Shown: positions 18,128-40,873 of the stretch, one piece after another | How the letters are laid out: each line of letters starts with the position of its first letter | Position numbering within the stretch: the first letter of the stretch is position 1 | The notes under the pieces: generated by a model | What the model was told of the DNA's origin: nothing | Seen by the model: the letters and a program-made list of their open reading frames with translations, nothing else | The model's database searches: none | Source of the DNA: a bacterium | GTDB taxonomy: Bacteria > Desulfobacterota > Desulfocorpusculales > Desulfocorpusculum | Assembly: GCA_037481695.1 (NCBI GenBank) | Contig: JBBFLE010000003.1 | Location: 62,001-126,000 of the forward strand | Length of the DNA stretch: 64,000 nt | Direction of reading: 5' to 3' | Translations under genes and position numbers: made by a program

Positions 18128-19573
18128 TCAGGGCCCCAGAATTGCGTGCACAGGCCTGCCCAGAGCCGTGTGGGAGAGCTCTCCCAAGAGCTCGGAAACA
18201 GTGGGATGGGGATGGATGGTTCCAGCCAGGTCTTGCAGTCTGGCACCCATCTTCAAGGCCAGGGTGCACTCCCCCACCAGTTCTGTCACATGGGGACCCA
18301 TGAGCTGCATTCCCACTATCCGATTACTCCCTTTTTCCCAGACCACCTTGGCCTGACCCGCTATTTCCCCGAGGATCTGAGCCTTGCCCACGGCGCGCAT
18401 CAAGTAAGTTTGGGAGCCCGTTTCCAGACCAGAAGCCTCGGCCTGCATCTGGCTCAAACCCACAAATGCCACCTCAGGGCATGTGAATATGGCTGATGGC
18501 ACGGCTTCATATTGCAATGTCTCCTTGCCTCCCATGGCATTTTCCGCAGCCACCAGCCCCTCGGCCGAGGCCACATGGGCCAGCATGGGGCGCCCTGGCC
18601 CCAGTGCATCCCCCACGGCAAAAACATGGGGCACAGATGTCTGGAGGTCTGGTCCCACCCGGATCCAACCCTTTTCTTCCAGTGTAAGCCCCAGCTTCTC
18701 CAGGCCCAGGGCCTGGCTTGCAGCCTCCCTTCCCACGCATACCACCACCCTATCAACACCAAGCAGTTTTGAAGCCTGGAGGTTCCCGCCCAAGGGCTCC
18801 ACCAGTGGAGAGGCCCCCAGCAGGACCTCCAGTTCCCCGTTTCTCTCTTGTATCTGCTCCACCACCTGCCTCAGACAAACCTGAATACCCCGTTTCCTCA
18901 TCTCCCGCTCCAGGACAATTGAGGTATCAGGATCCAAGGAAGGCAATGGAAGGATTCTGTCCAAGGCCTCCACCACCGTCACCTGAGAGCCCAGGCCTCT
19001 TAGGATGCAGGCTAGCTCGCAGCCCACAACACCCCCGCCCACGATCAAGATCCGCGAGGGCAGCTCTTGAAGCTCCAGCACATGGGAGCTGGAAAGAATC
19101 CTTTTCCCGTCAAAAGGCAAGTATGGCAAGGACAAAGGCCTGGAGCCCGTGGCCAGGATGAGCCTGTCCCACTCAAGTTTTGTACTCTCACCTGAGGCTG
19201 ACTCAACTTCCAGAAACCCCGGGCTTCTCACTCGGCCTAATCCCTTCACCAGATTCACACCCAGGCGGCCCAGCATCTTGACTATGGCGCTTTCCTGGAT
19301 CTCCACCACCTTGCGCTTCCTGGCCATGAGTCTATCCAGCCGAAGCTTAGGGTCTCCATCCAGCTCTATGCCCAGCTCTTCCCTCCTTTTCAGGGCTTCC
19401 ATGAGTTGGGCCGTCACCTTGAGAACCTTTGTGGGTATACATCCCCAGTGAAGGCATGTACCACCTACGCGGTCTTTTTCCACCAGGCTTACCCTGGCCC
19501 CCAATTGCGAGGCCCGGATGGCCGCCACATAACCACCAGGCCCCCCGCCAAGCACCACCACCCTCAAGGACAT
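18128..19573 (-). CDS. lpdA: Dihydrolipoyl dehydrogenase (E3)
   Basis: FAD flavoprotein that reoxidises dihydrolipoyl groups with NAD. 481 residues: FAD-binding GGGPGGYVAAIRA, redox disulfide GGTCLHWGCIPTK, NAD-binding ILIVGGGVVGCELA, FAD site VFAVGDALG, and the C-terminal catalytic His-Glu region IHPHPTVSE. ATG 19573 follows AGGAGGATTC; an upstream in-frame ATG is less likely. It is isolated from the E1/E2 genes at 59.9-63.3 kb, for which it is a plausible E3, but could also serve a glycine cleavage or another 2-oxoacid complex. Confidence 0.93.
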   Translation of the reverse strand: MSLRVVVLGGGPGGYVAAIRASQLGARVSLVEKDRVGGTCLHWGCIPTKVLKVTAQLMEALKRREELGIELDGDPKLRLDRLMARKRKVVEIQESAIVKMLGRLGVNLVKGLGRVRSPGFLEVESASGESTKLEWDRLILATGSRPLSLPYLPFDGKRILSSSHVLELQELPSRILIVGGGVVGCELACILRGLGSQVTVVEALDRILPLPSLDPDTSIVLEREMRKRGIQVCLRQVVEQIQERNGELEVLLGASPLVEPLGGNLQASKLLGVDRVVVCVGREAASQALGLEKLGLTLEEKGWIRVGPDLQTSVPHVFAVGDALGPGRPMLAHVASAEGLVAAENAMGGKETLQYEAVPSAIFTCPEVAFVGLSQMQAEASGLETGSQTYLMRAVGKAQILGEIAGQAKVVWEKGSNRIVGMQLMGPHVTELVGECTLALKMGARLQDLAGTIHPHPTVSELLGELSHTALGRPVHAILGP

Positions 19574-19630
19574 GGAATCCTCCTGTTTGCTGACTTTGGG
19601 CACAGGCAACATTTTAACAGCACAGAAAAA

Positions 19631-20674
19631 TCAGAGGCCACACTTCTTGGGACAATCCACACAAGCAGGCTCCCAAGAAACCGTGGAAAATGAATCTCTG
19701 AATTTCACATAGGCTGGATCTTCCCATATCTCCATGAGAGACTTCTGAGCCAGGTTCCCAAAGGAGAGCCTGTGCAAAGGCCTCTTTTCCCCTTTTCTCC
19801 ACTGCGGGATCTCAGGCAAGCTCATGTTGGTGTAAACGCAGGGACCCACATCCCCTTGAGCGCCCACCACCAGGGCCCTAAGCACGTTTTCGGTACAAGG
19901 GGCAAAACCTCCCCCAGCCACATCTCCCAGATGGTGATGCAAGAGTGTGCCCTTGAGAGCAAGCTTCTTACTTACCTCGGCCAAACATGACAAGAGAGCT
20001 TTATCCCCGTGGGGCATCAGCTCACCTTCCAGGCTCTTCTCCAGCACGCAATCCAGTGTGCTCACAACCACTTGGCTCACTGGTATTTCATCCAGAATCT
20101 CTGGCAGTCTGGGAAATTCCTCCCAGGCAGAGGCAAGAAGCATATAAGCCACGTGGATCTCGGGCACATCTGCTCCAGCCTCTGCCCTCGCTCTTGCAAC
20201 AAGGCGCATGGCATGCAAGACCCTCTCCAGGGGCGCCCCTTTTCTTATACGGTCATTTTGGGGGCCTGTGCCGGCCATGGAGAAGGCCACCACGTGAAAT
20301 CCTGCCCTGACCATCTGCCGGGCCATTTCCAGATCCATCAAGGTTCCGTTTGTAGTGGTGCCCACCCGGCACCCCGCCTCCCGGGAAAGCTTGGCCATCT
20401 GGAAAAGCTCTGGATGTAACAAGGGCTCACCCCAGCCCTGAAGATGCACATGACGGGCCTTGGCCAAGTGGGGAAGAAGCCTTCGAAAAAGCTGCATGTT
20501 TAGATCACGCTGGGGCCAGCTCTTTCCTGCCAGGGTGCGGGGGCAGTACGAGCAAGAGGCATTGCAGCGAGTGGTCACCTCCACCTGGATCCAGTCCCAG
20601 ATAGGTCTTTTCACCCATCTTTTCCACGGAATCAACACCATTTCCTTCCAAACCCTTGACAGCTCTTTCTTCAT
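19631..20674 (-). CDS. Radical SAM/SPASM-domain protein
   Basis: 347 residues. The radical SAM cluster motif is CNASCSYC (CxxxCxxC) near residue 40, followed by LQGWGEPLLHPE and TTNGTLMD, typical of SPASM-containing radical SAM enzymes. Auxiliary-cluster cysteines are in the C-terminal third: FAPCTENV, GPCVYTN and CVDCPKKCGL. Radical SAM/SPASM enzymes modify peptides, proteins or cofactors; no substrate peptide gene is evident next to it. ATG 20674 is chosen over an upstream start because the preceding residues are poorly protein-like. lpd follows after 57 bases, so the two may be cotranscribed. Confidence 0.85.
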   Translation of the reverse strand: MKKELSRVWKEMVLIPWKRWVKRPIWDWIQVEVTTRCNASCSYCPRTLAGKSWPQRDLNMQLFRRLLPHLAKARHVHLQGWGEPLLHPELFQMAKLSREAGCRVGTTTNGTLMDLEMARQMVRAGFHVVAFSMAGTGPQNDRIRKGAPLERVLHAMRLVARARAEAGADVPEIHVAYMLLASAWEEFPRLPEILDEIPVSQVVVSTLDCVLEKSLEGELMPHGDKALLSCLAEVSKKLALKGTLLHHHLGDVAGGGFAPCTENVLRALVVGAQGDVGPCVYTNMSLPEIPQWRKGEKRPLHRLSFGNLAQKSLMEIWEDPAYVKFRDSFSTVSWEPACVDCPKKCGL

Positions 20675-20760
20675 TGATATTATACCCCCCAGGTTGTGTT
20701 TTGAATGTGTCTTTTCCCTTTTCCCCAAACCAGGGGTCCCTTGATGAAAATAGAGAATTT

Positions 20761-22512: not shown

Positions 22513-22755
22513 CTACGATCCGGTCCCCAGCCTTCTCAAACAATCCTGTGGGAAGCGATGGGTGCCCCCTGTGCCCTCCAATGTCACCTCCACCAGTGCA
22601 TCAGGGTCATTTATGACCACATCTGGGTCTGTCACAACCCCTTTCATCCCTATGTATCGGGCCATGTATGACTCCCAGCGCTGATCCCCTGAAGCCCGGT
22701 AGATCTCCACACGATCTCCCTGGCGAAGAGCTCCTTGCTGCTCCATGGACTCCAT
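22513..22755 (-). CDS. Small conserved-looking hypothetical protein
   Basis: 80 residues, not recognised. ATG 22755 is preceded by GAAGGAAG and lies only six bases after the stop of the large flavoprotein gene, so it is very likely the last cistron of the molybdoenzyme operon. The sequence is hydrophilic, with a beta-rich core (GDRVEIYRASG, GMKGVVTDPDVVI, ALVEVTLEGTGGTHRFP) reminiscent of small SH3/KOW-like barrels. No signal peptide or metal motif apart from one Cys. It may bind the oxidoreductase or nucleic acid; nothing shows which. Confidence 0.6.
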   Translation of the reverse strand: MESMEQQGALRQGDRVEIYRASGDQRWESYMARYIGMKGVVTDPDVVINDPDALVEVTLEGTGGTHRFPQDCLRRLGTGS

Positions 22756-22761
22756 CTTCCT

Positions 22762-24918
22762 TCACCCCTGCGGGACAGACATCCCGCTCTTGGATTCTGC
22801 AGTGGCCCTGCGTGCACATTTCTCACATAGGAGCCTTCCTGCAAAGGCCTGGGCCAGCCCCGAGGTGCGCTTCCTGACAAAGTCCAGGTACCTGGAAGGT
22901 CCCAGATAATCTCCGCAGCCTTGGCATCTTTCCAGGCGCTCTCGCTGCAATATGGTTCCTCCCAAGATCAGGAGCCTCTCTTCACCCCTGTCCTCCATCT
23001 GCATGGCACCCGTGGGACAGTTGGCTGCACAGGCCCCACAGAGGATACATCTTTCCGAGGTCATCCGGAAGTCTGTAGGCGATTCCCCTGGCTGGCCCAC
23101 ATATCCCAGTTTCAAGGCGTCTATTTCCATTCGGTCACGGCAAACCACCACGCATCGGCCGCAGCGTTTGCATATGTCACAGCGAAGGCACCTGTGAGCT
23201 TCCCTTCTGGCCTGTTCCTCCCCCAGACCCAGCTCCACCTGTTGAAAGGTTATGCGACGCCGTTCAGGCCCCAGAAGCGGCATCTCGCACCTCTTGAGAT
23301 CCATCTTGAGCGAGGCAGCCATCTCCCAGGGCTCCAGCCTGGCCCTTCTGACAGGCACTGCTGGCATGGTTGGCTGGGGCAGGCCTTTTAAGAACCTGTC
23401 TATCCCCTCAGCCGCTCTTTTCCCGGCCCCTATGGCCTCTACCACCGTGGCTGGTCCCAGTACCACGTCTCCGCCCGCAAAGATGCCTTCCCGGCCTGCC
23501 CCTGCCGTGATGGTATCCGCCACTATGGTGTCCCAACTGCTCCAGCGTAAATCCAGGTGTTCGAGCCCTTCTGTCAGTACCCTTTGGCCTATGGCCGTCA
23601 CAACAGCATCGGCCGCCATGATGTGGTCACTGCCTTCTATGGGCACAGGCCTCCTGCGGCCTCTTGCATCAGGCTCGCTCAGGCGGGCCCTGAGGCATCT
23701 AAGCCCCACAACCCGACCTTTCTCCCCCATCACCTCCACGGGAATGGTCAGGAAGACCAGGCGAACCCCTTCTTCCTCTGCCTGGCGCACCTCCTCTACG
23801 TTAGCCGGCATCTCGGAGCGGGAACGCCTGTAAAGTAAGGTCACTTCTCGGCAGCCCAGCCTCACCAGAGTTCTGGCTGCGTCTATGGCCACGTTGCCAC
23901 CTCCCACCACCAGGACCCTTTCCCCAGGCCTTTTTCTGGCGCCCATGGCCACATCCCTTAGGAATCGCACCGCATCCAGCACCTGGGGCAAGTCCTCTCC
24001 GGGCACTGCCAGCCTGTGGGAGGCGTGGGCCCCCACGGCTATGAAAAATGCCTCGAAACCTTCCTTTCTCAGAGACTGGAGAGTCACCTCCACGCCCAGT
24101 CTGGTGTTGAATCGAAACTCCACCCCCAGCTCTTCTATGAAGGCCACCTCCCTGTCTATGACCTCCCTGGGAAGTCTGAAGCGGGGGATTCCCACCATCA
24201 TCATCCCGCCTGCCATGGGAAGCGCCTCTATGACAGTCACCTTATGGCCCTTGAGGGCCAGAAAATAAGCTGCCGTGAGCCCTGCCGGACCTGCCCCCAC
24301 CACGCATACCATGTGGCCGGTAGCGGGCTCCTTGGGAGGATTAAGGTACCTGCCCTCTGAAAGCGCCTTTTCCGCAGCAAAGGCCTTCAACTCCTTTATG
24401 GCAACTGGGGAGTCCACTTGGCCCCTTACGCATACAAACTCGCATGGATGTGTGCAAACCAGCCCGCAGACCCATGGAAAGGGGTTGTCCTGGCGGATGA
24501 GATTCACTGCCTCTTGGTAGCGCCCCTGGCCTATGAGGGCCACGTAGCTGGGCACATCTATGCCGGAAGGACAAGCCATCTGGCATGGGGCCGGAGCCAG
24601 CATGTCGCATGCACCGGAAGCACAATTGCGGGTGAGAATATGACTCTGGAATATCTCCCCTTGGCTTTCCAGTAAACTCAGGATCCTCTGTCCAAGATCT
24701 GCTCCATGAGCATCCTGCCTCTCTGTCAGGGACCTGGCCACTGCCTTTAGGTCGGCCAGATGCTCCGAGCCGGCCCTTCCCTGGGCTATATCCTCCAGCA
24801 ACACCAAGAGCTTCTCTGCCCGCATGCGGGCCCTGGGCTCCTTGATGCTTTCTTGGGCCAAGGCCGAGGCCACCTCTTGCCGGATCTCCCTTACGGGGCA
24901 AGTGCTTTCTTGGGCCAT
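22762..24918 (-). CDS. GltD-like NAD(P)H/FAD oxidoreductase with [4Fe-4S] domains
   Basis: 718-residue electron-input subunit. After an ~85-residue helical N-terminus comes a GltD-type cysteine region (CDMLAPAPCQMACPSGIDVP, then CGLVCTHPCEFVC), an FAD-binding GAGPAGLTAAYFLA, an NAD(P)-binding VVGGGNVAIDAARTLVRLG, and the FAD end motif IFAGGDVVLGPATVVEAI. The C-terminal quarter adds ferredoxin-like clusters: CLRCDICKRCGRCVVVC and CILCGACAANCPTG, plus CQGCG and LLCEKCARR. It would pass electrons between NAD(P)H and the [4Fe-4S] subunit encoded upstream. Part of an operon of molybdoenzyme, FeS protein, this gene and a small protein. Confidence 0.9.
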   Translation of the reverse strand: MAQESTCPVREIRQEVASALAQESIKEPRARMRAEKLLVLLEDIAQGRAGSEHLADLKAVARSLTERQDAHGADLGQRILSLLESQGEIFQSHILTRNCASGACDMLAPAPCQMACPSGIDVPSYVALIGQGRYQEAVNLIRQDNPFPWVCGLVCTHPCEFVCVRGQVDSPVAIKELKAFAAEKALSEGRYLNPPKEPATGHMVCVVGAGPAGLTAAYFLALKGHKVTVIEALPMAGGMMMVGIPRFRLPREVIDREVAFIEELGVEFRFNTRLGVEVTLQSLRKEGFEAFFIAVGAHASHRLAVPGEDLPQVLDAVRFLRDVAMGARKRPGERVLVVGGGNVAIDAARTLVRLGCREVTLLYRRSRSEMPANVEEVRQAEEEGVRLVFLTIPVEVMGEKGRVVGLRCLRARLSEPDARGRRRPVPIEGSDHIMAADAVVTAIGQRVLTEGLEHLDLRWSSWDTIVADTITAGAGREGIFAGGDVVLGPATVVEAIGAGKRAAEGIDRFLKGLPQPTMPAVPVRRARLEPWEMAASLKMDLKRCEMPLLGPERRRITFQQVELGLGEEQARREAHRCLRCDICKRCGRCVVVCRDRMEIDALKLGYVGQPGESPTDFRMTSERCILCGACAANCPTGAMQMEDRGEERLLILGGTILQRERLERCQGCGDYLGPSRYLDFVRKRTSGLAQAFAGRLLCEKCARRATAESKSGMSVPQG

Positions 24919-24942
24919 GATTCTAGGAACCCCCCGGCAACC

Positions 24943-25521
24943 TTATTCAGCCTGTTTTCGCACAGGAGGCTTCCTGGGTTTGGAGGCCGGGGCTGTGGGT
25001 TGCCTCAAGGTCACCTCCCAGCCCACAGCAGCCATGGCCTTGGCATGACGTTCCCTGCGGGAATCCACCATTTGCTCAGGTCTCCCGAAGTGGAGACACT
25101 TGGTGACGCACTTGGCAACACATGCAGGTTCCAGCCCCTTGTCCACCCTGTCTTTACAGTAGTCACACTTGACGGCCTTTCCTGTCTCTGGGTTCCATTG
25201 GGGCACCCCCCAGGGGCAGGCTCGCATGCAGGCCTTGCAGCCAACACAAAGCTCCTCGTTCACGAAAACTATGCCGTCTTCGGCCCTCTTCTGCATTGCC
25301 CCGGTGGGACATGCCGCCACGCACCAGGGTCTTTCACAGTGAAAGCAGGGCATGAAGATGAAGTCCACCTTGGGAAGCCCACCCACCATTTTGGGACCCA
25401 CGGTCATGACCCTGCAGAGCCTTGGTCCCACGGGAAGCCTCTTGTTCTCTTTGCAGTGCACCTCGCAGGACAGGCATCCTATGCACTTGCTGCTGTCATG
25501 AAACAGGTAGTATTCGCTCAT
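24943..25521 (-). CDS. Four-cluster [4Fe-4S] electron-transfer subunit
   Basis: 192 residues, DmsB/PsrB/HycB-like. Cysteine groups for four cubane clusters are present: CIGCLSCEVHC, CFHCERPWCVAACPTG, CVGCKACMRACPWG and CDYCKDRVDKGLEPACVAKC. No signal peptide, so it works in the cytoplasm with the molybdoenzyme upstream and the NAD(P)H-FAD subunit downstream (24 bases away). The C-terminal tail after ~165 is proline- and lysine-rich. Confidence 0.92.
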   Translation of the reverse strand: MSEYYLFHDSSKCIGCLSCEVHCKENKRLPVGPRLCRVMTVGPKMVGGLPKVDFIFMPCFHCERPWCVAACPTGAMQKRAEDGIVFVNEELCVGCKACMRACPWGVPQWNPETGKAVKCDYCKDRVDKGLEPACVAKCVTKCLHFGRPEQMVDSRRERHAKAMAAVGWEVTLRQPTAPASKPRKPPVRKQAE

Positions 25522-25577
25522 CTGTGCATCTCCTTAAGAACACTCTCAAGACTCTGGACTCTCTGAGTTCTGAACTT

Positions 25578-27659
25578 CTACGCTGGCCTCACCCTCACGA
25601 ATGTATCGTGAAGACCCGGGCTTCCCCCCACCATGTCGGTGATGTTTTTCTGAAGGGCTGTGTCGCTGGCCCCTTTGTTATAACACCTCGTGGTGACCGG
25701 CACCTGGCGGCCGAAACCGTGAAGCATGAACACAGCTTCCGGATGAATCAGATCCGTGACAAAGGCCTTTATTCTTCCCCAACCCTGGTCCGAAGATACT
25801 TCCACATATTGGCCATCGCTGATTCCAAGTTTGGCTGCCTCCACCGTGTTGATCCACAGCACGTTGGTAGGCACAAGCTCGTTCAAATAAGGGTTGTTCT
25901 GGGTGGAAACATGGGTGTGCACAGCGTTTCTTCCCACCGTTAGTCTGAACATGCCCTCGGGGGGTGCACTGGGGCTCTGGTAGGGTTCCAGGGATGCAAA
26001 TCCCTTTTCCTCCATGAGGCTGGATATGAACTCTATCTTGCCAGAAGGCGTCTTGAACTTGATGCCATCTTTGCGATCCCAAATTATGGGCTTGTCCGAA
26101 AGGGCCACGAACCCCTTGGCCTCAAACTTCTCCAGGGGGATTCCCATGTCCTTTAACTGGTAGTTCCAGATGTCCTCGATGGTGTTGTATGGGAAGAATT
26201 TCCCTACTCCCAGGTTCTCGGCCAAGAGCTTGATGATCTCCCAGTAAGGCTTGGTGTCATAGCGGGGAGGCACGCATTGCCTGCGCATGTAGATGGTGGG
26301 TCTTGGGCCATCTGCCATCTGAAGGGAATCCGAGCGCTCCAGGTACATGGATTCGGGAAGCACCACATCAGAGTACCAGGCCGTCTCGCTGAAATTCACA
26401 TCTATGGTCAGAATGAAGTCTAGTTTGTCAAAGGCCCTCTTGTTCTGATTGTAATCTGGTATGGAGAGCAATGGATCGAACCTGTAGCTTATGGCCGCCT
26501 TTATGGGATAGGGTTGCTCCTTTAGGATGGCCAGAGGAAGCTGCTGGCCCACGCCGTGGGCAGGATCGCATATGGGAAGAAGATCGCCCCCCACCCCGTC
26601 GAACCGGGGGGCCTTGGGTTTGGGAAGCCCTTCTTGGTCCACCAACTTGGCAAAGGCGCCATAGCCAGCATCCTTGGCTGTTTTCTTTATGATCAGCCCC
26701 CCTTTGCTCTCGATGCTCCCCATCAGGGCGTTGAGCATGATTATGGAGCGGCGGAAGTAAATCTCATTGGTATGGTTGGCCCCGCGGTACCCGTAATGGA
26801 ACACAACCTGAGGCTTGTCCCTGCTTATTTCCCTGGCCAGCGCCACTATCTCCTCGGCCGGTATTCCTGTCTCTTCCTCGGCCCACTCTGGTGTCATGGC
26901 TTCCACGAAGCCCCGCAGCTCATTGAGCCCGCTTACCCAACGGTTCACGTACGTTTCGTCGTAAAGGTTCTCCCGCAAGATCACGTTCATGAGGGCATAG
27001 TTGAGGGCCAGATCCGTGCCTGGGCGGATCAGCCAGAAACGGTGGGCCTTGCTGGCTGTAATGGTGGCTCTAGTGTCAATGTAGGTGATGCGGCTTCCTT
27101 TTTCCATGGCATCCATCAAGGCCTGTATGGGTTTGAGCTCCAAGGACTCGAAGATATTGCGTCCATAAAGCACTATATGCTTGCAGTTGGCATAATCTAT
27201 GGTGACCTGGGCGTCCGTGTAACCGGTGAGGGTTCTAAACGCGGTGTTCACAGACCCCTTGCAAAGAGCATCGTGGGTATAGTGATTGGGAGACCCCAAG
27301 GCTCTCATGAAGGTCTTGCTCAGGTGGGTGTTGAGATTCTGTCTTTCCCCGAAAACCACGCTTTCAGGACCGTGCTTCGAGATCACCTCCTGAAGCTTTT
27401 CCGCTGAATAAGCAAGGGCCTCCTCCCAGCTGACCCTTTTCCACCTTCCCTCTCCCCTTGCTCCCACCCTTATCATGGGGTAACGAAGCCTTTCTGAATC
27501 GTTGAGAAGCGCAGTGCCGGCACTTCCTTTGGCACAAAGGGCCCCCTTGAGTTGGTGGGGGTTACCCTCTATCCAACGCACAGCCCCGTCTTCTACCGTG
27601 ACCTTTATGGGGCAACGCACGGTACACATGAAACAGATGCTGTAAACCTCTTTGTGCAT
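25578..27659 (-). CDS. Cytoplasmic molybdopterin oxidoreductase, PsrA/PhsA-like catalytic subunit
   Basis: 693-residue member of the DMSO-reductase superfamily. The N-terminal [4Fe-4S] ligands are CFMCTVRCPIKV with a fourth Cys in GALCAKG. The probable molybdenum ligand is the Cys of HDALCKGS (about residue 133); no in-frame UGA is present, so it is not a selenoprotein. NAVHTHVSTQNNPYLNEL and the C-terminal dinucleotide-binding domain fit thiosulfate/polysulfide reductase-like proteins. There is no twin-arginine signal: the cluster motif starts at residue 9, so the enzyme is cytoplasmic, and its FeS and NAD(P)H subunits agree. Substrate is not settled; reduction of a sulfur compound or an NAD(P)-linked dehydrogenase reaction are both possible. 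TAGGAGGCCAGGG precedes the ATG. Confidence 0.88.
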   Translation of the reverse strand: MHKEVYSICFMCTVRCPIKVTVEDGAVRWIEGNPHQLKGALCAKGSAGTALLNDSERLRYPMIRVGARGEGRWKRVSWEEALAYSAEKLQEVISKHGPESVVFGERQNLNTHLSKTFMRALGSPNHYTHDALCKGSVNTAFRTLTGYTDAQVTIDYANCKHIVLYGRNIFESLELKPIQALMDAMEKGSRITYIDTRATITASKAHRFWLIRPGTDLALNYALMNVILRENLYDETYVNRWVSGLNELRGFVEAMTPEWAEEETGIPAEEIVALAREISRDKPQVVFHYGYRGANHTNEIYFRRSIIMLNALMGSIESKGGLIIKKTAKDAGYGAFAKLVDQEGLPKPKAPRFDGVGGDLLPICDPAHGVGQQLPLAILKEQPYPIKAAISYRFDPLLSIPDYNQNKRAFDKLDFILTIDVNFSETAWYSDVVLPESMYLERSDSLQMADGPRPTIYMRRQCVPPRYDTKPYWEIIKLLAENLGVGKFFPYNTIEDIWNYQLKDMGIPLEKFEAKGFVALSDKPIIWDRKDGIKFKTPSGKIEFISSLMEEKGFASLEPYQSPSAPPEGMFRLTVGRNAVHTHVSTQNNPYLNELVPTNVLWINTVEAAKLGISDGQYVEVSSDQGWGRIKAFVTDLIHPEAVFMLHGFGRQVPVTTRCYNKGASDTALQKNITDMVGGSPGLHDTFVRVRPA

Positions 27660-28077
27660 CCCTGGCCTCCTAAGATTGTGTGGATATCAAAAACCCATCG
27701 GCTCCAAAACAGCAAAGCAACTATTGTGCCTCTTGGCCTCTAGGGCTCAATACCGCTGGCTAATATACCCCCACCACAAAATATCATTGAGCATGCCTGG
27801 CCGGGAAATACCTTTTGGGTGCTTATCCAGAAAGTATGTCAGTGGGAATTACCAAGCCCGTCCCAAAACCTGGGGCCTGGAGGCAAAAGGGCCATTGCCG
27901 GTTCTTTTTAGAAAGGCCATGGTTGGTGTGATGGTTTATTGGTGCAAGAAAAATGTTGCAGTTGTGGGACAAAAAGAATAGAATGATTTGGCAGTCTGGC
28001 AGCTAGCAGAGGCGAATCCCTTGGCGCAAATTTTTCCTTGCACCCGGTTTGTAGGACGTTTTTTTCATCCCAGGGCC
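27660..28077. other. Divergent intergenic region, molybdoenzyme / sensor operon
   Basis: 418 bases between divergent operons, locally more AT-rich than the genes. No reading frame with a credible start and family resemblance. It must hold two promoters, but no convincing -35/-10 or sigma54 match was found. Confidence 0.5.
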
Positions 28078-28515
28078 ATGTTTTTGCTAGCCTGGGCCTT
28101 TGTCTTGTTTGGGGGAGCAGGGCAGCAAGCCTGGGCTCTACAAGTGCATCCCGAGCCCGAGGGTCTCTACAGTCACCAGATAGCCCATCTTTTTTTTATC
28201 TTGAGTATGGCCATACTGGTCTTCTGGTTGAGGAAGAGGAATCTGATCCTGGAGCCAGGATGGGGCTTTGTGCAATGGGCCTGCATCATGTTCATAGTCT
28301 GGAATGCGGCGGCCTTCATAGGTCATGCCGTGGAGGCAGACATGAAGGAGGAATCTTTTGTGGGAAAGGGCTGGTCCAGAGCCCTTCTGGTCCAGGGTCT
28401 GGCCTCCCCCTTGATTTACTTGTTCCTCAAGATGGATCATCTCACCTGTGTGCCGGCCATTTTGTTTCTCTATTTGGGGCTTAGAAAGATAAAACAGAAG
28501 GCTCAGGCCCCATGA
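28078..28515 (+). CDS. Four-helix membrane protein upstream of histidine kinase
   Basis: 145 residues, function unknown. It starts with a signal-like hydrophobic stretch ending in QAWA, then a conserved-looking periplasmic segment HPEPEGLYSHQIAHLFF with three histidines, and three further membrane helices (LSMAILVFWL, WACIMFIVWNAAAFIGHAVE, CVPAILFLYLGL). The in-frame stretch upstream of ATG 28078 is not protein-like. Its last bases overlap the kinase start (ATGA), so it is translationally coupled and is probably an accessory sensor or membrane partner of that kinase. Confidence 0.65.
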   Translation: MFLLAWAFVLFGGAGQQAWALQVHPEPEGLYSHQIAHLFFILSMAILVFWLRKRNLILEPGWGFVQWACIMFIVWNAAAFIGHAVEADMKEESFVGKGWSRALLVQGLASPLIYLFLKMDHLTCVPAILFLYLGLRKIKQKAQAP

Positions 28516-30032
28516 GTCCCCCCACGCAGATCCCCCTTGCACCCATATATGTTGTGGACATTTTGGGGGCAGGCCTCATGATTTTGCTTTCGGCCATGTG
28601 CGTGGCCATGACCAGGGGGCTTCGCCGAAAGGATCCCGAGAATCTCTTGTGGACATATCTGCTTTGGCTTTCAGCTGGGCTGCTTGTGTTTTCCCTTTCC
28701 CGTTCGGGAAGCCACCTGGTGAAGTACCTTCTCTTGGCCTTGCAGTTGGATCAGGTATGGATCCAGATCCGTCCAGTCACAGGCTCCCTCAACAGCCTTT
28801 CCTTTGTTTTGGTAGGGGCCATAACCCTGTTTTTCAGTCAGATCTATTCCACATACCAGCGTATGGGCCAGGACAAGGCCCTGATACACAAGGCCCACAG
28901 GGAAATCCTGGAGCTCAACGCCAACCTGGAGCGCATGGTGGAAGAGCGCACCAGAGAGCTCTCGGCCTCCGAGGAAAAGTACCGCCGCCTCTTCGAGGGC
29001 TCCAGGGACATGGTCTTCATCTGTGATGGTAGCGGAAGGCTTCTGGACATAAATCAGGCAGGGGCTCAGCTGCTGGGAGTGGAGGACCGCCAAGAGCTTC
29101 TGGGCCAGGAACTATTGAGCCAGTTCCATCCCACGGACAACCAGGGGTTGCTCCTGGAACGCCTTCAACAGAGGGACTTTGTCATGGATCTGGAGGTTTC
29201 CCTCCATAGGCTCGGTGGGGAGGATGCAGTGGGGCTGCTTGCCGCCACTGTGCGAAGGGGCCCGGCCGGGATCCCCGAACGCATAGAGGGGATTCTCAAG
29301 GACATATCCTCCCGCAGGTGGATGGAACGCCAGCTGCTTCAGGCCGACAAGCTGGCTTCCCTAGGCCAGCTTTCGGCAGGCGTTGCCCACGAGATAAACA
29401 ACCCCTTGGGCCTCATCCTGGGGTACACCCAGTTGCTTCTTCGGGACCTGGACTCCCAGTCTCCCATTGCCCAGGATCTAAGGGTCATCGAGAAGCATGC
29501 AGTGCATTGCAAGCGCATAGTTGAGGATCTCCTTAAGTTCTCACGATCTTCCGGAACCACCAAGACCCGCCAAGATCTAAACGCACTTCTCAAGGAGGTA
29601 CTGGCCGTGGTGCGAAGCAAGTTCGAGCTGGAAAGGGTTGAGGTGGTGGAGCTTCTGACCCCTGATCTACCTCCTGTAACGGTGGATGGTGACAAGCTGA
29701 AACAGGTTTTCATGAACCTCCTGATGAATGCAAGGCAGGCCATCTCAGGGCCAGGTAAGATCGAGGTGCAAACCGTGCTGGAGAAGAAGAGAAAGAGGAT
29801 ACTGGTTTGTTTTCAGGACACGGGGTGCGGCATCCCCCCGGAGATACAGCACAGGATCTTCGATCCCTTTTTCACCACAAAGCCCGTGGGAGTGGGAACC
29901 GGGCTTGGATTGTCCGTCAGTTACGGCATCGTGAGGGACCATGAGGGTGAAATAAGGGTGGAAACCTCTTTGGGAAAGGGCTCTACCTTCACAGTGGAAT
30001 TGCCTTTGGATGCAGAAGGGAATGGCAGGTGA
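28512..30032 (+). CDS. Membrane sensor histidine kinase (PAS-HisKA-HATPase)
   Basis: 506 residues. Two or three N-terminal membrane helices, a coiled coil with the DKALIHKAHREILELNANL region, a PAS domain (about 155-275), a HisKA domain with H-box GVAHEINNPLGLILG and an HATPase domain (NLLMNARQAI, DTGCGIPPEIQHRIF, GVGTGLGLS). This NtrB-like kinase type usually pairs with sigma54 activators, and the partner follows directly with a four-base overlap of start and stop. Its signal may come through the small membrane protein encoded just upstream. Confidence 0.93.
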   Translation: MSPPTQIPLAPIYVVDILGAGLMILLSAMCVAMTRGLRRKDPENLLWTYLLWLSAGLLVFSLSRSGSHLVKYLLLALQLDQVWIQIRPVTGSLNSLSFVLVGAITLFFSQIYSTYQRMGQDKALIHKAHREILELNANLERMVEERTRELSASEEKYRRLFEGSRDMVFICDGSGRLLDINQAGAQLLGVEDRQELLGQELLSQFHPTDNQGLLLERLQQRDFVMDLEVSLHRLGGEDAVGLLAATVRRGPAGIPERIEGILKDISSRRWMERQLLQADKLASLGQLSAGVAHEINNPLGLILGYTQLLLRDLDSQSPIAQDLRVIEKHAVHCKRIVEDLLKFSRSSGTTKTRQDLNALLKEVLAVVRSKFELERVEVVELLTPDLPPVTVDGDKLKQVFMNLLMNARQAISGPGKIEVQTVLEKKRKRILVCFQDTGCGIPPEIQHRIFDPFFTTKPVGVGTGLGLSVSYGIVRDHEGEIRVETSLGKGSTFTVELPLDAEGNGR

Positions 30033-31429
30033 AGAACTCCGATGTTTCCATCCTAATAGTTGACGACGAGCCTGACATGGTGGAGCTTCTCAGGCGCACT
30101 GTTTCCAGGGAGTTGGGCTGGAAAGTTTTTACAGCAGGCTGCGGAAAAGATGCTATGGAGATGATAGAGGAAGGCTCTTTGGATCTGGTGCTCCTGGACA
30201 TAAAGATGCCTGACATGGATGGAATGGAAGTTCTCAGAATCGTAAGCCAAAGGCCTGATCCTCCTACCATAATAATGATGACCGCCTACGGGGTCATAGA
30301 TCTGGCCGTAGAGTCCATAAGGCAGGGGGCCTATGATTTCATCACCAAACCCTTTGACTATGCCCGTCTGGTCCACAGTCTCCGTCAGGCCTGGGAACAC
30401 CGAAGGCTCGTTATGGAGAATCTGGCTCTTCAGCGCCTGGTGAAGCAAAAGGAGGGTTTTCAGGACATAGTTGGCGCCTCCCCTGTAATGAAGCGCGTTT
30501 TCGAGACCATCCAGATGGTGGCCCCAACAGATGCCACGGTGTTGATCACAGGGGAGTCAGGCACAGGAAAGGAGCTTGTGGCCAGGGCCATCCACAAACT
30601 CTCTAGGCGCATGGAAGGCTCCTTCGTGGCCGTGAACTGCCCGACCCTCCCTGCCAACGTGCTGGAGAGCGAATTGTTCGGCTTTGTCAAAGGCGCCTTC
30701 ACAGATGCCAGGTATGACAGAAAGGGACTCTTCCAGGAGGCAGACGGAGGAACCATTTTTCTGGATGAGATAGGGGATCTGCCCCCTGACCTTCAGGCAA
30801 AGCTCCTTAGGGTTCTTCAGGAAAAGGAGATAAAACCCCTGGGCCACAGCCGAGCCTTCAAGGTGGATGTGAGGGTCCTGGCATCCACCAACCAGGACCT
30901 GAAGACCCAGATGGCAGGGGGCAAATTCAGGGAGGACCTGTATTACAGGCTAAACGTGGTCTCCATACACCTGCCGCCCCTTAGGGAAAGGATGGAGGAT
31001 GTACCTGTTCTGGCCCATCATTTCCTCCAGAGGCATGGCTCCAGGCTTGGCAAAACCGACGTGCAGATATCCCCCGAAGCAATGGAGGCATTGCTCAGCC
31101 ACAACTGGCCTGGAAACGTGAGGGAGCTGGAAAACACGATCCAGAGGGCCCTGATCCTGGCTCGTTCTGGAAGCATCTCCAGGGAGGACCTGGCCCAGGA
31201 GTTGAGCCAAAGAAAAAGCGGCTGGCCCGCAGTTTTCCACCTCTCTTACCGGGAAGCCAAGTCAAGGGTGTTGGGCCACTTTCACAAGGAGTACCTATCT
31301 AGAGTCTTGGAGCAAAACAAGGGCAATGTTACCCGGGCAGCTGAAGCATGCGGTCTGGAGCGCCAGGCACTCCAGCAGCTTCTGAGGCGCTATAATTTAA
31401 GCCGAGAGAGATTTTTGCCGCAATCCTAA
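30029..31429 (+). CDS. NtrC-family sigma54-dependent response regulator
   Basis: 466 residues, GTG start overlapping the kinase stop. Receiver domain 1-120 with DDEPDM acidic pocket and phospho-acceptor in LVLLDIKMPDMDG; AAA+ domain with Walker A GESGTGKELVARAIH, the sigma54-contact loop as GFVKGAFTDA, Walker B TIFLDEIGDLP; and a C-terminal Fis-type HTH (GNVTRAAEACGLERQALQQLLRRY). It should activate a sigma54 promoter, and a candidate lies about 145 bases downstream of its stop, before the receiver/TauE genes. Confidence 0.95.
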   Translation: MKNSDVSILIVDDEPDMVELLRRTVSRELGWKVFTAGCGKDAMEMIEEGSLDLVLLDIKMPDMDGMEVLRIVSQRPDPPTIIMMTAYGVIDLAVESIRQGAYDFITKPFDYARLVHSLRQAWEHRRLVMENLALQRLVKQKEGFQDIVGASPVMKRVFETIQMVAPTDATVLITGESGTGKELVARAIHKLSRRMEGSFVAVNCPTLPANVLESELFGFVKGAFTDARYDRKGLFQEADGGTIFLDEIGDLPPDLQAKLLRVLQEKEIKPLGHSRAFKVDVRVLASTNQDLKTQMAGGKFREDLYYRLNVVSIHLPPLRERMEDVPVLAHHFLQRHGSRLGKTDVQISPEAMEALLSHNWPGNVRELENTIQRALILARSGSISREDLAQELSQRKSGWPAVFHLSYREAKSRVLGHFHKEYLSRVLEQNKGNVTRAAEACGLERQALQQLLRRYNLSRERFLPQS

Positions 31430-31572
31430 GCATCACTCATTCTCCTCCAAAAATTGGGCTTGACCCTACTGCAACAAAAGACTTGCGCCTACAGGTTTGA
31501 TCTAGGCCTACCCTTACCTCCCAAAAGCCCCCTGAGCGCAGAAGAAACGACTTTGGCCTCACCGCGCAGATC

Positions 31573-31589
31573 TTGGCACAGCTCTTGAT
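31573..31589 (+). promoter_or_regulatory. Sigma54-like promoter upstream of receiver/TauE operon
   Basis: TTGGCACAGCTCTTGAT matches the consensus YTGGCACGrNNNTTGCW with correct -24/-12 spacing; the -24 GG is intact but the -12 GC reads GA. It lies 39 bases before the next gene and just downstream of the sigma54 activator gene. Confidence 0.45.
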
Positions 31590-31628
31590 TGCAATTGCAC
31601 ATGTAAAACCCTCAGGGAGAAAACTGCC

Positions 31629-32057
31629 TTGCCACTGATATTGGTGATCGAGGACCAGGAGGATGCCTGCGGGCTTGTGCGAAGGCTGCTCATGCGGCTA
31701 GGCCACACCGTAGTGTGCCTGGAGCATGGTTCCGAGGCTGACATTTGGCTCAAGAGCCATCAGCCGGATCTGGTGATAGTAGGGGGAGGCAGGCACGGCG
31801 AGCTGGCTTCTGAGAGGTTGGAGGTCCTGGCTCGCCGCGGGGTCAGTGGCTCTCGGGTGCTCCTTGGGGCCAGGGCCGATGCTTTGGAGTTTCTACGGGG
31901 TAGATTCGGCCAGAGGGTGCGGGAGATCTTCAGCTCCCCCCAGGCACTGGAGAGTCTTGAGGCCATGGTGCGAAAAGCACTTGATGAGACCCCCGCAGCA
32001 AAGACTCCAGAAGAAAACAAAGGTGAGGGGCCTCGGGTTCCAGAGACCTCTTATTGA
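31629..32057 (+). CDS. Degenerate receiver-domain protein
   Basis: 142 residues, TTG start. The fold reads as CheY-like (LILVIEDQEDACGLVRRLL, PDLVIVGGGRHG, SRVLLGARADALEFL) and the N-terminal acidic pocket is present, but the phospho-acceptor Asp is replaced (LVIVGGG instead of LVILDxxMP) and the C-terminal KP pair reads SSPQ. It therefore cannot be phosphorylated in the usual way and is probably a pseudo-receiver that binds a partner. The C-terminal ~25 residues are a charged tail. It precedes the TauE-like gene by 57 bases. Confidence 0.68.
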   Translation: MPLILVIEDQEDACGLVRRLLMRLGHTVVCLEHGSEADIWLKSHQPDLVIVGGGRHGELASERLEVLARRGVSGSRVLLGARADALEFLRGRFGQRVREIFSSPQALESLEAMVRKALDETPAAKTPEENKGEGPRVPETSY

Positions 32058-32114
32058 GGGCTTGGGGCAAGGCGGTCTCAATTGGAGAATCCCAATGCAA
32101 AGGAGGAGGTGGAC

Positions 32115-33347
32115 ATGAGGGAAAAGAGAGGATGGAGGTTGGTTTTTGTTGTTTTGGCACTGGTGGCTGGCATGGCCTTTTTCGCCACATCCTGGGCCCA
32201 GGGGCAGAGCCCACAGGCTGCTCAGCCCCCGCAGGCAGCAGAAAAGCCAGCAGCAGAAAAGCCCAAGGTGGGAAGCGACCTGGGATTGCCGGGAAAGATC
32301 GGCCAGGAGGTGGCCAAGGCCCCTGTGGGAAAAGAACCCGGCCACATAGACCCCCAGGCGCCTCGAGGTGCCTTTGGGATACCAGGGGCTCCCAGGGTGA
32401 ATTACATATTGGCCATCGTTTGGGCCATATGGGTGGGTTGGATATTCTCCACAGTGGGAGCCTTCGGGGGCATTATGGCAGGTGTGGGCCATATGACTGT
32501 CTATGGCCTTGGGGATTACGCCAGATCCTTTGGAAAGACAGCACCGGGTCTGGGCAAGACCCTCACCGACAGCATCCGCACCTCGAATCAGTTCCTGGTG
32601 GGGCTTTCCTCTTTGGTCAGTAGCATTAATTACCTAAAAAGCAAACAACTCGCCTGGCCTGTAGGTATTGCCTTGGCCCTGGGCTCCATAGCCGGCGCCC
32701 TTTTCATCCCATGGCTCACAGGGGGAAAGATCAGCTTCAGGCAGTATCAGGGCTGGTTCGGGCTCTTTGTTTTCGTGGTAGGGGCCTTTCTCTTCTACGA
32801 GACCACTCCCAAAGGCCAGCAGAAAAAGAAGGCTGCCAAAGAGGCTGCCCAGGCCTTTGCCAAGGCCCGAAAGGAAGGCAAGGCTAGCGAGGGGATAAGT
32901 TTCAAGAGTTTCTCCCTGACCAAGGCCACGTTTTCCTTTTTCGGAATCGAGTTCAAGTTCAATCCCATAGTGGTCTTCATTGGAGGCGTAGTTATAGCGG
33001 CCATCTCCTCCTTCCTGGGGGTGGGAGGGGGGTTCCTGTATGTTCCTTTTCTAACGACTTTTGTGGGAGCCCCCATGTACGTTGTGGCCGGCACCTCGGC
33101 CATGGCAGTGCTTCTTAGCATGATCACCAGCATAGCCGGCTATATCACCGTGGCCAAAGCCGGCATGGACTGGGGATTGGTGGGCATACAGCTTGTGGGA
33201 ATCTTTGTGGGCTCCATGATCGGGCCTCGAACCCAGAAATACATCCCCGACATCTGGCTCAAGAGGCTTTTCGTGGTGTTGGCCCTGTACGTGGGCCTTG
33301 GCTACTTCAGCAAAGGCTTCTTCGGCACGGCCTGGGTGCCCATGTGA
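32115..33347 (+). CDS. TauE/SafE family sulfite/sulfonate exporter
   Basis: 410-residue inner-membrane permease. ATG 32115 follows AGGAGGTGGAC. It begins with a signal-like helix ending in SWAQG, a Pro/Ala/Lys-rich periplasmic linker (about 30-85), then two TauE half-repeats. The second repeat carries the clear motif ISSFLGVGGGFLYVPFL; the first is IFSTVGAFGGIMAG. Between the halves is a Lys/Ala-rich cytoplasmic stretch around residues 235-275. Family members export sulfite, sulfoacetate or similar anions. Position after a pseudo-receiver and a sigma54-like promoter suggests inducible expression. Confidence 0.85.
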   Translation: MREKRGWRLVFVVLALVAGMAFFATSWAQGQSPQAAQPPQAAEKPAAEKPKVGSDLGLPGKIGQEVAKAPVGKEPGHIDPQAPRGAFGIPGAPRVNYILAIVWAIWVGWIFSTVGAFGGIMAGVGHMTVYGLGDYARSFGKTAPGLGKTLTDSIRTSNQFLVGLSSLVSSINYLKSKQLAWPVGIALALGSIAGALFIPWLTGGKISFRQYQGWFGLFVFVVGAFLFYETTPKGQQKKKAAKEAAQAFAKARKEGKASEGISFKSFSLTKATFSFFGIEFKFNPIVVFIGGVVIAAISSFLGVGGGFLYVPFLTTFVGAPMYVVAGTSAMAVLLSMITSIAGYITVAKAGMDWGLVGIQLVGIFVGSMIGPRTQKYIPDIWLKRLFVVLALYVGLGYFSKGFFGTAWVPM

Positions 33348-36538: not shown

Positions 36539-38953
36539 TCAAATTATTTTTTCAAGCTGCCCTGAGTTGACCACCTCGGGAGGCCGCCCTGCCTTGTCCC
36601 AATCCAGGAGCCTATGGGCCTGGACCACCAAGAGTTCTTTGTGCATGTTCTCTTTGGTCTCAAGCAAGAACTCAAGCTCCCCTTGTTCCCAGCCCAGGCG
36701 CACCAAGTCTCCTTGTTTTAGGCCCAGGCAGGCTGCTGTCTCAGGATGTAGGAAACCCATGGGCCCTGCCTCCATCTTGCAGCTATGTCTTGAATAGGAG
36801 GAAAGCTCCTCTGTGCCAAATGTGGCCTGCACCAAAAGCAAACTCAAAGCCCCCTGGCCTTCCTCCTTCTGGGAATGAAAAATTTCTTCCCACCTCTTGC
36901 CCCCTTCAGGTTCCAGGGCCAGGATCCTCTGGCCTGGTCTTACCTCACGCAGCCATCCGAACCTCTGCCGCAGCACATTCCTCAGCCCCGGCAGATCCGA
37001 AAACCCAAGGGATTCACCCATGGCTTCCGAGAGCTTGGCCAGAGCCTCCCAGCCAGCACAGGTGCCACCCCCTGGGATCTCGGTCCCAAAAGTCCTGGGA
37101 GGATTTGCCTCTTCCAACATCTGTGATATGGGAATTCCCCCATGGTGGACTGCCGTGGCCTCCTGCAATCTGCCTTCATTGTTAACAAACAGGCAAGATG
37201 ATTCAAATAGACTCTTGCAAGGCATTACCACAGAGGCCTGCTTTGAAACCCCCGAAGGCAGGTAATCCATTACCAGGATCAACTCTAGGCCCTTGAATCC
37301 CTCCTTGAGCCTTGCCTTTCCCCAAAAGGAGAAAAGAGGATCCGTTTCCACAAGCACCAGGGCCTTGAGCTCACCTCTTTCTATTGCCTCCAGGAGTTCC
37401 TCCAAACCAGAGGCTTCCGAACCAGAAACAGCCACTGCCCCCAAGGAATTGGCCCCGCGCAGAACCGGGAAAAGGCCCCCACAGCCCTTCTCCTTTCTGA
37501 GGAAATGAGCCAGTTCCAAACATGCGCCCATGAAGTCTGCCTTGGCCAGGAGAGTGCCGCAGGCCATGACTGGTCTTTTCCCTCGGGCCAGGGCCTGCCT
37601 CCAGGCCTTGAGGAACCCCTGGTCATCAAACCCTTCATAAGGGCTCTTGGGCTTGCCTGCCAGATATTCCAGGGCCATGCCCATCTCCCTGGGATGTACC
37701 ACCCAATGGGAAAAGCAAAAGGGTAGCTCCACCCCTCTTGGATCCACCACACCCACCCAGCCTCCCTTTCTCCAGGCCTGACGAAGTGCCAGGGCCAACA
37801 TGGGAGCCTCCTGGACGGGATCAAGCCCCACCACAAGGATCGTGTCAGCCTCTTCAACCTGCTTCATGCTCACAAAGAGCTCTTGGCCTTGCAAGAGCCT
37901 ACGCACACATTTCAATTCCTGTGTCTCCATCCAGAGAAATGGACCTGAAACAGCATGTTTCTCGCAAAATAGCCTGAGGGCGCCCAGGCTCTCCAGGCTT
38001 GCCCTGGAAGAGCCCACCACAGCCGCTGAAGAGGGACCGTGCTTTTCTATTATTTCCCGCAGCCTCCCCCCAGCGTACGCCAGGGCCTCCTGCCAAGAAC
38101 AGGCCCTGCCCTCCACCAGAGGCCATCTGGGCCTGCTGGGATGATTGACATAATCAAATCCGTATCGGCCCCTGTCGCATATGAAGTGGCCGTTGACCTC
38201 AGGGTTGTGTCCTGCCTCTATTCTTAGCACCTCCCTGTACCTACTGTTGACGACAATGGAACAACCCAGGCAGCAGTGAATGCAAAGGGAGGGGGCTCTC
38301 TGGCACTCCCATCGTCTGGCCTTGAAACGTGAAGGCTTGTCTGTGAAGACCCCTGTGGGACAGATGTCTATGAGGTTTCCTGCAAAGGGGCTTTCCAGGG
38401 GCCCTGGCACTGCTCTTCCAAAATAGGTCCTGCTGGCCAGGCCCATGACCCCCATGTCCTTGTAACCCGAGTACTCTTGGTAGAAGCGCCTGCATCGCCA
38501 GCAGTGGATACAGCGGTTCATCTCGTGCTGCACAAAAGGACCCAGGTCCTGGTCCTCATAGGTGCGTTTGGAGCCCGGGAATCTCCTCATGGAGTGACCC
38601 CCAGCCACCGTCATCTCCTGCAAGACGCAGTGTCCACCCTCATCGCAGACCGGGCAGTCGTGAGGGTGGTTCATCATGAGCCACTCCATGATCTGCTTTC
38701 TGAATTGCAAGGCATCCGGGTGTTGGGTGGATACCACCATGCCCTCCTTGGCCTCCACCATACAGCTCATGAGAAGGCCTCTTACGGGTCCCTCCAGGAA
38801 ACTCACGGCACAAAGCCTGCAGGCTCCTGCAGAACCCAGGGCTGGATGGTAACAGAGCCTTGGGATATATATGCCCAGCTGCTGAGCTGCCTCGATCACC
38901 TTTGTGCCGGAGGCCACTTCTATGGAGCGGCCGTCTATGACTATCTGGGGCAT
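36539..38953 (-). CDS. nuoG: NADH-quinone oxidoreductase subunit G
   Basis: 804 residues. N-terminal [2Fe-2S] ferredoxin domain (CYHPALGSAGACRLCAV...C), the HxxxCxxCxxxxxC cluster region HPHDCPVCDEGGHCVLQ, two [4Fe-4S] clusters (CIHCWRCRRFYQE, LIDICPTGVFTDK), then a molybdopterin-oxidoreductase-like domain without cofactor role, beginning with a further Cys set CIHCCLGCSIVV. Fully consistent with a functional peripheral-arm subunit. Confidence 0.94.
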   Translation of the reverse strand: MPQIVIDGRSIEVASGTKVIEAAQQLGIYIPRLCYHPALGSAGACRLCAVSFLEGPVRGLLMSCMVEAKEGMVVSTQHPDALQFRKQIMEWLMMNHPHDCPVCDEGGHCVLQEMTVAGGHSMRRFPGSKRTYEDQDLGPFVQHEMNRCIHCWRCRRFYQEYSGYKDMGVMGLASRTYFGRAVPGPLESPFAGNLIDICPTGVFTDKPSRFKARRWECQRAPSLCIHCCLGCSIVVNSRYREVLRIEAGHNPEVNGHFICDRGRYGFDYVNHPSRPRWPLVEGRACSWQEALAYAGGRLREIIEKHGPSSAAVVGSSRASLESLGALRLFCEKHAVSGPFLWMETQELKCVRRLLQGQELFVSMKQVEEADTILVVGLDPVQEAPMLALALRQAWRKGGWVGVVDPRGVELPFCFSHWVVHPREMGMALEYLAGKPKSPYEGFDDQGFLKAWRQALARGKRPVMACGTLLAKADFMGACLELAHFLRKEKGCGGLFPVLRGANSLGAVAVSGSEASGLEELLEAIERGELKALVLVETDPLFSFWGKARLKEGFKGLELILVMDYLPSGVSKQASVVMPCKSLFESSCLFVNNEGRLQEATAVHHGGIPISQMLEEANPPRTFGTEIPGGGTCAGWEALAKLSEAMGESLGFSDLPGLRNVLRQRFGWLREVRPGQRILALEPEGGKRWEEIFHSQKEEGQGALSLLLVQATFGTEELSSYSRHSCKMEAGPMGFLHPETAACLGLKQGDLVRLGWEQGELEFLLETKENMHKELLVVQAHRLLDWDKAGRPPEVVNSGQLEKII

Positions 38954-38966
38954 GCTGGATTCTTCC

Positions 38967-40747: not shown

Positions 40748-40873
40748 TTTCTGCCCTTTACCCCAAAATCGACCTTAGCCCTTGCAGAGCCTTGAGAGCA
40801 GATGGCCTGTTGCCCTCTAGGCAGCCAACCCCTTGATCCCCATATGGAATCCTGGTTCTTTCAATTACAGCTC

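Follow-up and report, generated by a model that had tools for sequence, protein, structure and literature searches.

Four closely spaced genes of a Desulfocorpusculum bacterium (Desulfobacterota) probably encode a soluble cytoplasmic NAD(P)H:thiosulfate oxidoreductase, judging from their sequences and those of their relatives. They occupy positions 22513–27659 on the minus strand of the 64,000-nt stretch that we analyzed (hereafter the window: positions 62,001–126,000 of the forward strand of contig JBBFLE010000003.1, assembly GCA_037481695.1), and specify, in this order, a catalytic subunit, a ferredoxin, a flavoprotein and an 80-residue protein (Table 1). An earlier sequence-only reading of the window had delimited exactly these four genes and had suggested that they may encode an NAD(P)H-linked sulfur reductase or a bifurcating-type complex; we keep NAD(P)H as the likely donor and find thiosulfate a likelier substrate than polysulfide. 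The literature searched, which lacks most subscription journals, describes neither a PhsA/PsrA–GltD operon nor, for sulfate reducers, an NAD(P)H:thiosulfate reductase in the cytoplasm; several papers do name phsA or phsAB genes from such bacteria (here and below, papers are cited for the passages available to us).

The catalytic subunit has the three domains of molybdenum bis(pyranopterin guanine dinucleotide) (Mo-bisPGD) enzymes (Pfam PF04879, PF00384, and PF01568), and its top NCBIfam model is PhsA (PRK15488), at 565.6 bits under a cut-off of 694 bits; the catalytic subunits of two relatives (555.8 and 598.6 bits) also stay below this cut-off. Its top PDB match by phmmer is Thermus PsrA (2vpw), over the whole length (E = 3.5e-114). 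C9, C12, C16, and C42 form an N-terminal 4Fe-4S motif, and Cys133, which we take to be the Mo ligand, is invariant in 15/15 alignment rows. The ferredoxin has 18 Cys forming four 4Fe-4S patterns, as had been read from the sequence, and is DmsB-like by NCBIfam (147 bits, cut-off 214). The flavoprotein is of GltD type, combining Fer4_20 (PF14691) with PF07992 and scoring 539.3 bits against PRK12771 (cut-off 516), and the extra FeS clusters previously ascribed to this NAD(P)H module are indeed there.

At E = 1e-100 or better, 98 of 297 genomes in the phylum hold a match to the catalytic subunit. Among named genomes we found 175 relatives and fetched the top 80 of them for neighborhood counts; nearly all of the 80 are Deltaproteobacteria/Thermodesulfobacteriota, many of them metagenome bins of known sulfate-reducer genera, and Bacillota are represented by two Desulfofundulus species and one bin of Desulfovirgula, a genus that we place in that phylum. 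Identities to the window protein fall into three bands, ~59–91% (clade A), 40–52% (clade B), and 32–38%. We built a tree of 60 rows from a subset of the relatives (24, 19, 11, and 4 rows from the fetched loci, plus the window and Thermus PsrA). The window enzyme falls in clade A (25 rows, support 100/99), clades A and B join with one further row without an export signal (100/100), and this unsignaled clade together with enterobacterial PhsA is split from 14 other rows (100/98), so that the window enzyme and PhsA lie on the same side of that branch, with the length of the PhsA branch as a caveat. Joining the unsignaled clade to Thermus PsrA without PhsA was rejected by the approximately unbiased (AU) test (p-AU = 1.2e-7). 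PhsA shares 92 of the 115 columns conserved in clades A and B and Thermus PsrA shares 83; 17 match PhsA and not Thermus PsrA. Thiosulfate is likelier than polysulfide because the catalytic subunit adjoins enterobacterial PhsA, away from Thermus PsrA. A phylogeny was one of the checks proposed with the sequence-only reading, and it reveals no clustering with a characterized enzyme of a substrate other than those named there: the nearest characterized enzyme is PhsA, whose substrate is among them. A Thermus-type polysulfide reductase is rejected by the tree and the AU test.

A second line of evidence comes from Desulfofundulus. At E = 1e-40, no match except the clade-A enzyme exceeds 29% identity in D. 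thermobenzoicus DSM 14055 or D. australicus DSM 11792; each genome gives two further matches, frames of ~900 codons interrupted by an in-frame TGA, which would be formate-dehydrogenase-like. Thiosulfate disproportionation is reported to support growth of D. thermobenzoicus (Jackson & McInerney 2000, cited in PMC11206085 and PMC3844878), and since no PhsA-like protein other than the clade-A one was found in it, thiosulfate is favored as the substrate. PMC11206085 regards the phsA (psrA) gene of close relatives of D. thermobenzoicus as the likely one, and no partner is named in the passages available. A single PhsA-like protein was found in five of the seven genomes searched, and a second one, of clade B, in two. 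The window genome has no second full-length match above 31% identity to the catalytic subunit; shorter pieces match at up to 44% over ~100 residues, one of them within NuoG. Both dsrA and aprA score over their cut-offs in the window genome, the one genome in which sulfate-reduction genes were looked at. Published phsAB data from other sulfate reducers agree weakly with thiosulfate: O. marinus PhsA expressed in E. coli gave more H2S from thiosulfate (PMC10989961), and D. alaskensis phsAB mutants were slightly impaired on thiosulfate (−0.79, −0.30; PMC4215793).

These results bear on the best of the alternatives, that the operon encodes an NAD(P)H-dependent enzyme of the cytoplasm that reduces polysulfide or sulfur, or a persulfide scavenger; this comes close to the sequence-only reading, and we regard it as improbable. 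It would accord with Thermus PsrA being the best solved match, with the eight A+B-conserved columns that side with Thermus PsrA and not PhsA, and with the sulfur reductase of Desulfurella amilsii, whose catalytic subunit lacks a twin-arginine motif and has been suggested to face the cytoplasm (PMC5317093). The tree and the AU test favor PhsA, however, and the sole PhsA-like enzyme found in a thiosulfate disproportionator belongs to clade A.

A textbook thiosulfate reductase works outside the cell via the membrane quinone pool. The window protein leaves no room for a twin-arginine translocation (Tat) signal because it starts at the first cluster motif and its open frame is only nine codons longer (702). 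An RR-x-F/L motif with a hydrophobic run, scored by eye, was seen in 0/24 rows of clade A, 0/19 of clade B, and 10/11 outer rows; the exception among the outer rows (L224) is placed inside clade B in the tree. No membrane quinol-oxidizing C subunit or anchor is encoded among the four window genes, and in 48 of 50 loci of relatives a simple hydropathy scan of the 5 kb downstream found no same-strand frame with multiple helices, the two exceptions looking, by reading, like phosphate-transport and Rnf genes. The cytoplasmic location proposed from the sequence alone is supported.

Neighborhoods were counted only in loci with enough flank, at least 800 bases downstream for the ferredoxin, at least 5 kb downstream for the GltD and 80-residue genes, and at least 5 kb upstream plus 9 kb downstream for the TauE, regulator, and 175-residue genes, which excluded 7, 30, and 47 of the 80 loci, respectively. 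The ferredoxin gene follows the catalytic gene in 72 of 73 usable loci, a GltD gene lies on the same strand in 45 of 50, and the 80-residue gene is present in 31 of 50. The pyridine-nucleotide module is common among the relatives, and not universal. Two loci carry a further catalytic and ferredoxin gene pair nearby (L131:111-2186 and L161:305-2395; 57% and 49% identity).

The module itself varies. Most often it is a short GltD with the 80-residue gene behind it. In 17 fetched loci a NuoF-like half is fused to GltD in place of the short GltD; the one fusion scanned has Complex1_51K and NADH_4Fe-4S domains, and the flavin mononucleotide (FMN) loop is lost in both fusions examined (1131 and 1135 residues). 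In four loci (L110, L124, L138, and L147), NuoE-, NuoF-, and NuoG-like genes directly follow the ferredoxin gene (by reading, with families scanned for L138), and in all four the FMN loop of NuoF is intact and NuoF has two additional 4Fe-4S clusters. Residues 1–100 of the short GltD share ancestry with the NuoF 4Fe-4S domain found in the fusions (hhalign gave a probability of 97.7 against that region in the 17 NuoF–GltD fusions and at most 1.6 in 20 column-shuffled controls), and the short form therefore looks like a fusion minus most of NuoF; the change would have run from fusion to short GltD.

This variation bears on a further alternative, a bifurcating or confurcating complex that joins thiosulfate to NAD(P)H and ferredoxin, presumably on the HydABC/NfnABC plan. 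The four loci with an intact NuoF speak for it, as do the best PDB matches of the GltD part, 9bov, 8oh5, and NfnA (9n5u), but the NuoF part in the window is a vestige of ~100 residues, a single flavin site is seen, and the FMN loop is gone even from the two fusions, so we hold this explanation to be unlikely. The bifurcating-type complex of the sequence-only reading accordingly lacks support in the window operon, where a second flavin site was not seen and the NuoF with intact FMN loop typical of HydABC is absent; it may apply to relatives with an intact NuoF. More broadly, we suggest tentatively that PhsAB docks on interchangeable pyridine-nucleotide modules, namely a HydABC-like NuoE/NuoF/NuoG set, a NuoF–GltD fusion with a dead NuoF, and the GltD of the window with its NuoF vestige and SH3-barrel subunit. 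Within such a family, the HydABC-like set may possibly confurcate NADH and ferredoxin to reach −400 mV. If true, sulfate reducers and thiosulfate disproportionators would have in this modular family the so far missing route by which electrons enter PhsAB.

The 80-residue protein, called unknown in the sequence-only reading, has no match in Pfam, NCBIfam, or PHROGs, and it is conserved: it occurs in 13 of 297 genomes of the phylum, its own included, with gltD adjacent in all 13 (a 14th match is a second copy in one genome, at a contig edge). Among loci with a GltD at least 51% identical to that of the window, 30 of 35 have the 80-residue gene, against 0/10 below 46%, and it lies beside 0/17 NuoF–GltD fusions. 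The family has 18 invariant residues across 30 sequences. The structural model (mean predicted local distance difference test score 79.8) is an SH3/KOW-like barrel, with best matches at Foldseek E = 4.1e-3 and VIA-align Z = 8.3, and Z = 8.0 for the cytochrome b6f subunit PetP; this being only a common fold, function is not deducible from it. A ~250-residue protein often follows the 80-residue gene in relatives (L053:7327-8088, L056:4171-4929, and others), carrying 2Fe-2S and 4Fe-4S motifs and a CxxC...CxxC tail resembling that of the GltD-like protein; it was not seen beside the window operon.

In the proposed mechanism, electrons would pass from NADPH or NADH to the flavin adenine dinucleotide (FAD) of the GltD-like protein, through its 4Fe-4S clusters to the four-cluster ferredoxin, and on via the N-terminal 4Fe-4S cluster of the catalytic subunit to Mo-bisPGD, the subunits presumably forming one complex in which the 80-residue barrel might, as a guess, serve docking or assembly. 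There thiosulfate would be split into sulfide and sulfite, and sulfite would go onward to DsrAB in respiration or to AprAB/Sat running in reverse in disproportionation. The nearby TauE/SafE permease would move a sulfur oxyanion, and the adjoining two-component system may turn the set on. The standard potential (E0′) of thiosulfate reduction to sulfite and sulfide is −402 mV (PMC3949148), and a low-potential soluble donor therefore suits the reaction. The conserved operon suggests an electron-input partner, a transporter, and a regulator, and so allows a direct test.

Several observations weigh against thiosulfate reduction by NAD(P)H. NADPH-driven reduction is uphill at standard potentials. 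In the tree, which contains neither Wolinella nor Shewanella PsrA, PhsA sits on a long branch (1.51), and L224 combines a long branch and odd composition with an unsure position; the eight columns siding with Thermus PsrA were given above. The phenotype of the D. alaskensis mutants is slight, and DsrAB itself reduces thiosulfate in vitro (PMC4215793). PhsA was scarce in Desulfolithobacter during thiosulfate disproportionation, and Desulfatirhabdium butyrativorans reportedly cannot disproportionate thiosulfate (PMC9751629 for both), yet metagenome-assembled genomes so labeled (L120 and L121) carry the set. The passages covered report no assay of a purified complex for any enzyme known to belong to clade A or B. 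Among the relatives, GltD is on the opposite strand in L105, one of the 5/50 loci without a same-strand GltD; likewise without it are L147, with Nuo-like genes, and L125, where an Rnf-type set that is possibly a further electron input follows the catalytic and ferredoxin genes (both by reading). In L107 and L132, the last two of the five, no redox module was recognizable by reading. A lipoamide-dehydrogenase-like gene takes the place of GltD in L075, and in L152 a PhsC-like match lies on the opposite strand at a distance of ~4 kb.

The explanation that we credit least, a reductase of another oxyanion (tetrathionate, arsenate, or selenate) or an enzyme run in reverse to make thiosulfate from sulfite and sulfide against sulfite stress, could draw on the breadth of the family, on the nearby TauE-family permease, which would suit sulfite handling, and on the excretion of thiosulfate by D. 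alaskensis during sulfate reduction (PMC4215793), but the TtrA, ArrA, and YnfE/YnfF models score far under PhsA.

Among known systems, enterobacterial PhsABC supplies the nearest characterized row to the window catalytic subunit, with a Cys at the matching place, and its B subunit has four clusters, as in the window operon. It differs in the Tat motif of PhsA and in the adjacent gene for a cytochrome b membrane subunit (NZ_CP062909); the window has neither, and a GltD-like flavoprotein instead. By score, Tat signal, and anchor the operon is not a member of PhsABC, but it probably works like PhsABC with a different electron input. In the E. coli plasmid NZ_CP062909.1, the enterobacterial phsA, phsB, and cytochrome b genes lie between two IS26 copies, and 54 plasmid records match the window catalytic subunit at E = 1e-50. 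Thermus PsrABC, which is exported and quinone-linked, includes the best solved whole-length match but stands elsewhere in the tree. Geobacter SfrAB, whose reported acceptor is Fe(III), pairs a Mo-type subunit with a GltD-like NADPH subunit, like the window operon. The GltD part resembles chains of NfnA (9n5u), 9bov, and 8oh5, which we group with NfnABC-related flavoprotein complexes and HydABC, and some relatives have NuoE/NuoF/NuoG-like genes; the window version differs in having no NuoF with an FMN domain, and we know of no NfnABC/HydABC-type complex whose partner is a PhsA-type enzyme.

The annotated phsAB genes of sulfate reducers (Dde_1076:1075, Desulfolithobacter PhsAB, Desulfotignum Dpo_3c03810:3820, and Desulfofundulus salinus D7024_03870) represent Phs without C, or phsA alone is named; they are possibly in the same clade as the window enzyme, and the available parts of their descriptions name no electron donor. 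HmcB scores over its cut-off in three of four genomes of one group (f40), which we took to be Desulfovibrio-like on the assumption that Hmc marks Desulfovibrio; Dde_1076 is not placed thereby.

Just upstream of the operon, and divergent from it, lie the genes at 27988–33347 (Table 1). Of 33 loci of relatives, 26 have a TauE-family gene within ~9 kb, with at least 45% identity in 14 of them; the window genome has eight such genes in 4.1 Mb. No sigma-54 promoter was found with the pattern used in the 400 bases before the window operon, and a stricter pattern gave seven matches in the whole window against 6.0 expected. Among 76 relatives, 22 have a −24/−12 type motif in the 330 bases preceding the catalytic gene, whereas plain base shuffles gave 2.1, a comparison that disregards the shared ancestry of the relatives; such putative motifs would fit the nearby sigma-54 regulator.

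Table 1. Features of the operon and of its divergent neighbors (window coordinates)
Feature	Position	Strand	Remarks
Catalytic Mo-bisPGD subunit, PhsA/PsrA type, without export signal	25578..27659	-	693 aa
Cys133 codon of catalytic subunit	27261..27263	-	aligned with Cys of Thermus PsrA (2vpw) and PhsA
Four-cluster ferredoxin electron-transfer subunit, DmsB/PsrB type	24943..25521	-	192 aa
GltD-like NAD(P)H flavoprotein	22762..24918	-	718 aa; NuoF C-terminal vestige, Fer4_20, FAD/NAD(P), two 4Fe-4S, CxxC...CxxC tail
NuoF 4Fe-4S domain remnant, codons 1-100 of GltD-like protein	24619..24918	-	hhalign
Two 4Fe-4S clusters, codons 577-634 of GltD-like protein	23017..23190	-	Pfam Fer4_7, Cys positions
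80-aa conserved protein, predicted SH3/KOW-like barrel	22513..22755	-	found beside short GltD type
175-aa protein, divergent from operon, no Pfam/NCBIfam family	27988..28515	+	homologue near relatives, 12/33 loci
PAS histidine kinase	28512..30032	+	
Sigma-54 response regulator	30029..31429	+	homologue near relatives, 16/33 loci
TauE/SafE-family permease, candidate sulfur-oxyanion transporter	32082..33347	+	

On the other side, convergent with the operon, a gene for a YeiH-type putative sulfate exporter (PF03601; 20656–22392, plus strand) encodes a long N-terminal part before the domain; it was ruled out as part of the operon, a homologue being near 0/33 usable loci. Beyond it, 18128–20728 (minus strand) encodes a dihydrolipoyl dehydrogenase and a protein of the radical SAM/SPASM type; the latter scores best, though under cut-off, with the model of a tungsten-cofactor oxidoreductase maturase. 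Complex I genes lie a few kb from the operon at 36539–43495 (minus strand), encoding a NuoB/C/D fusion (40874–43495), NuoE, NuoF, and NuoG.

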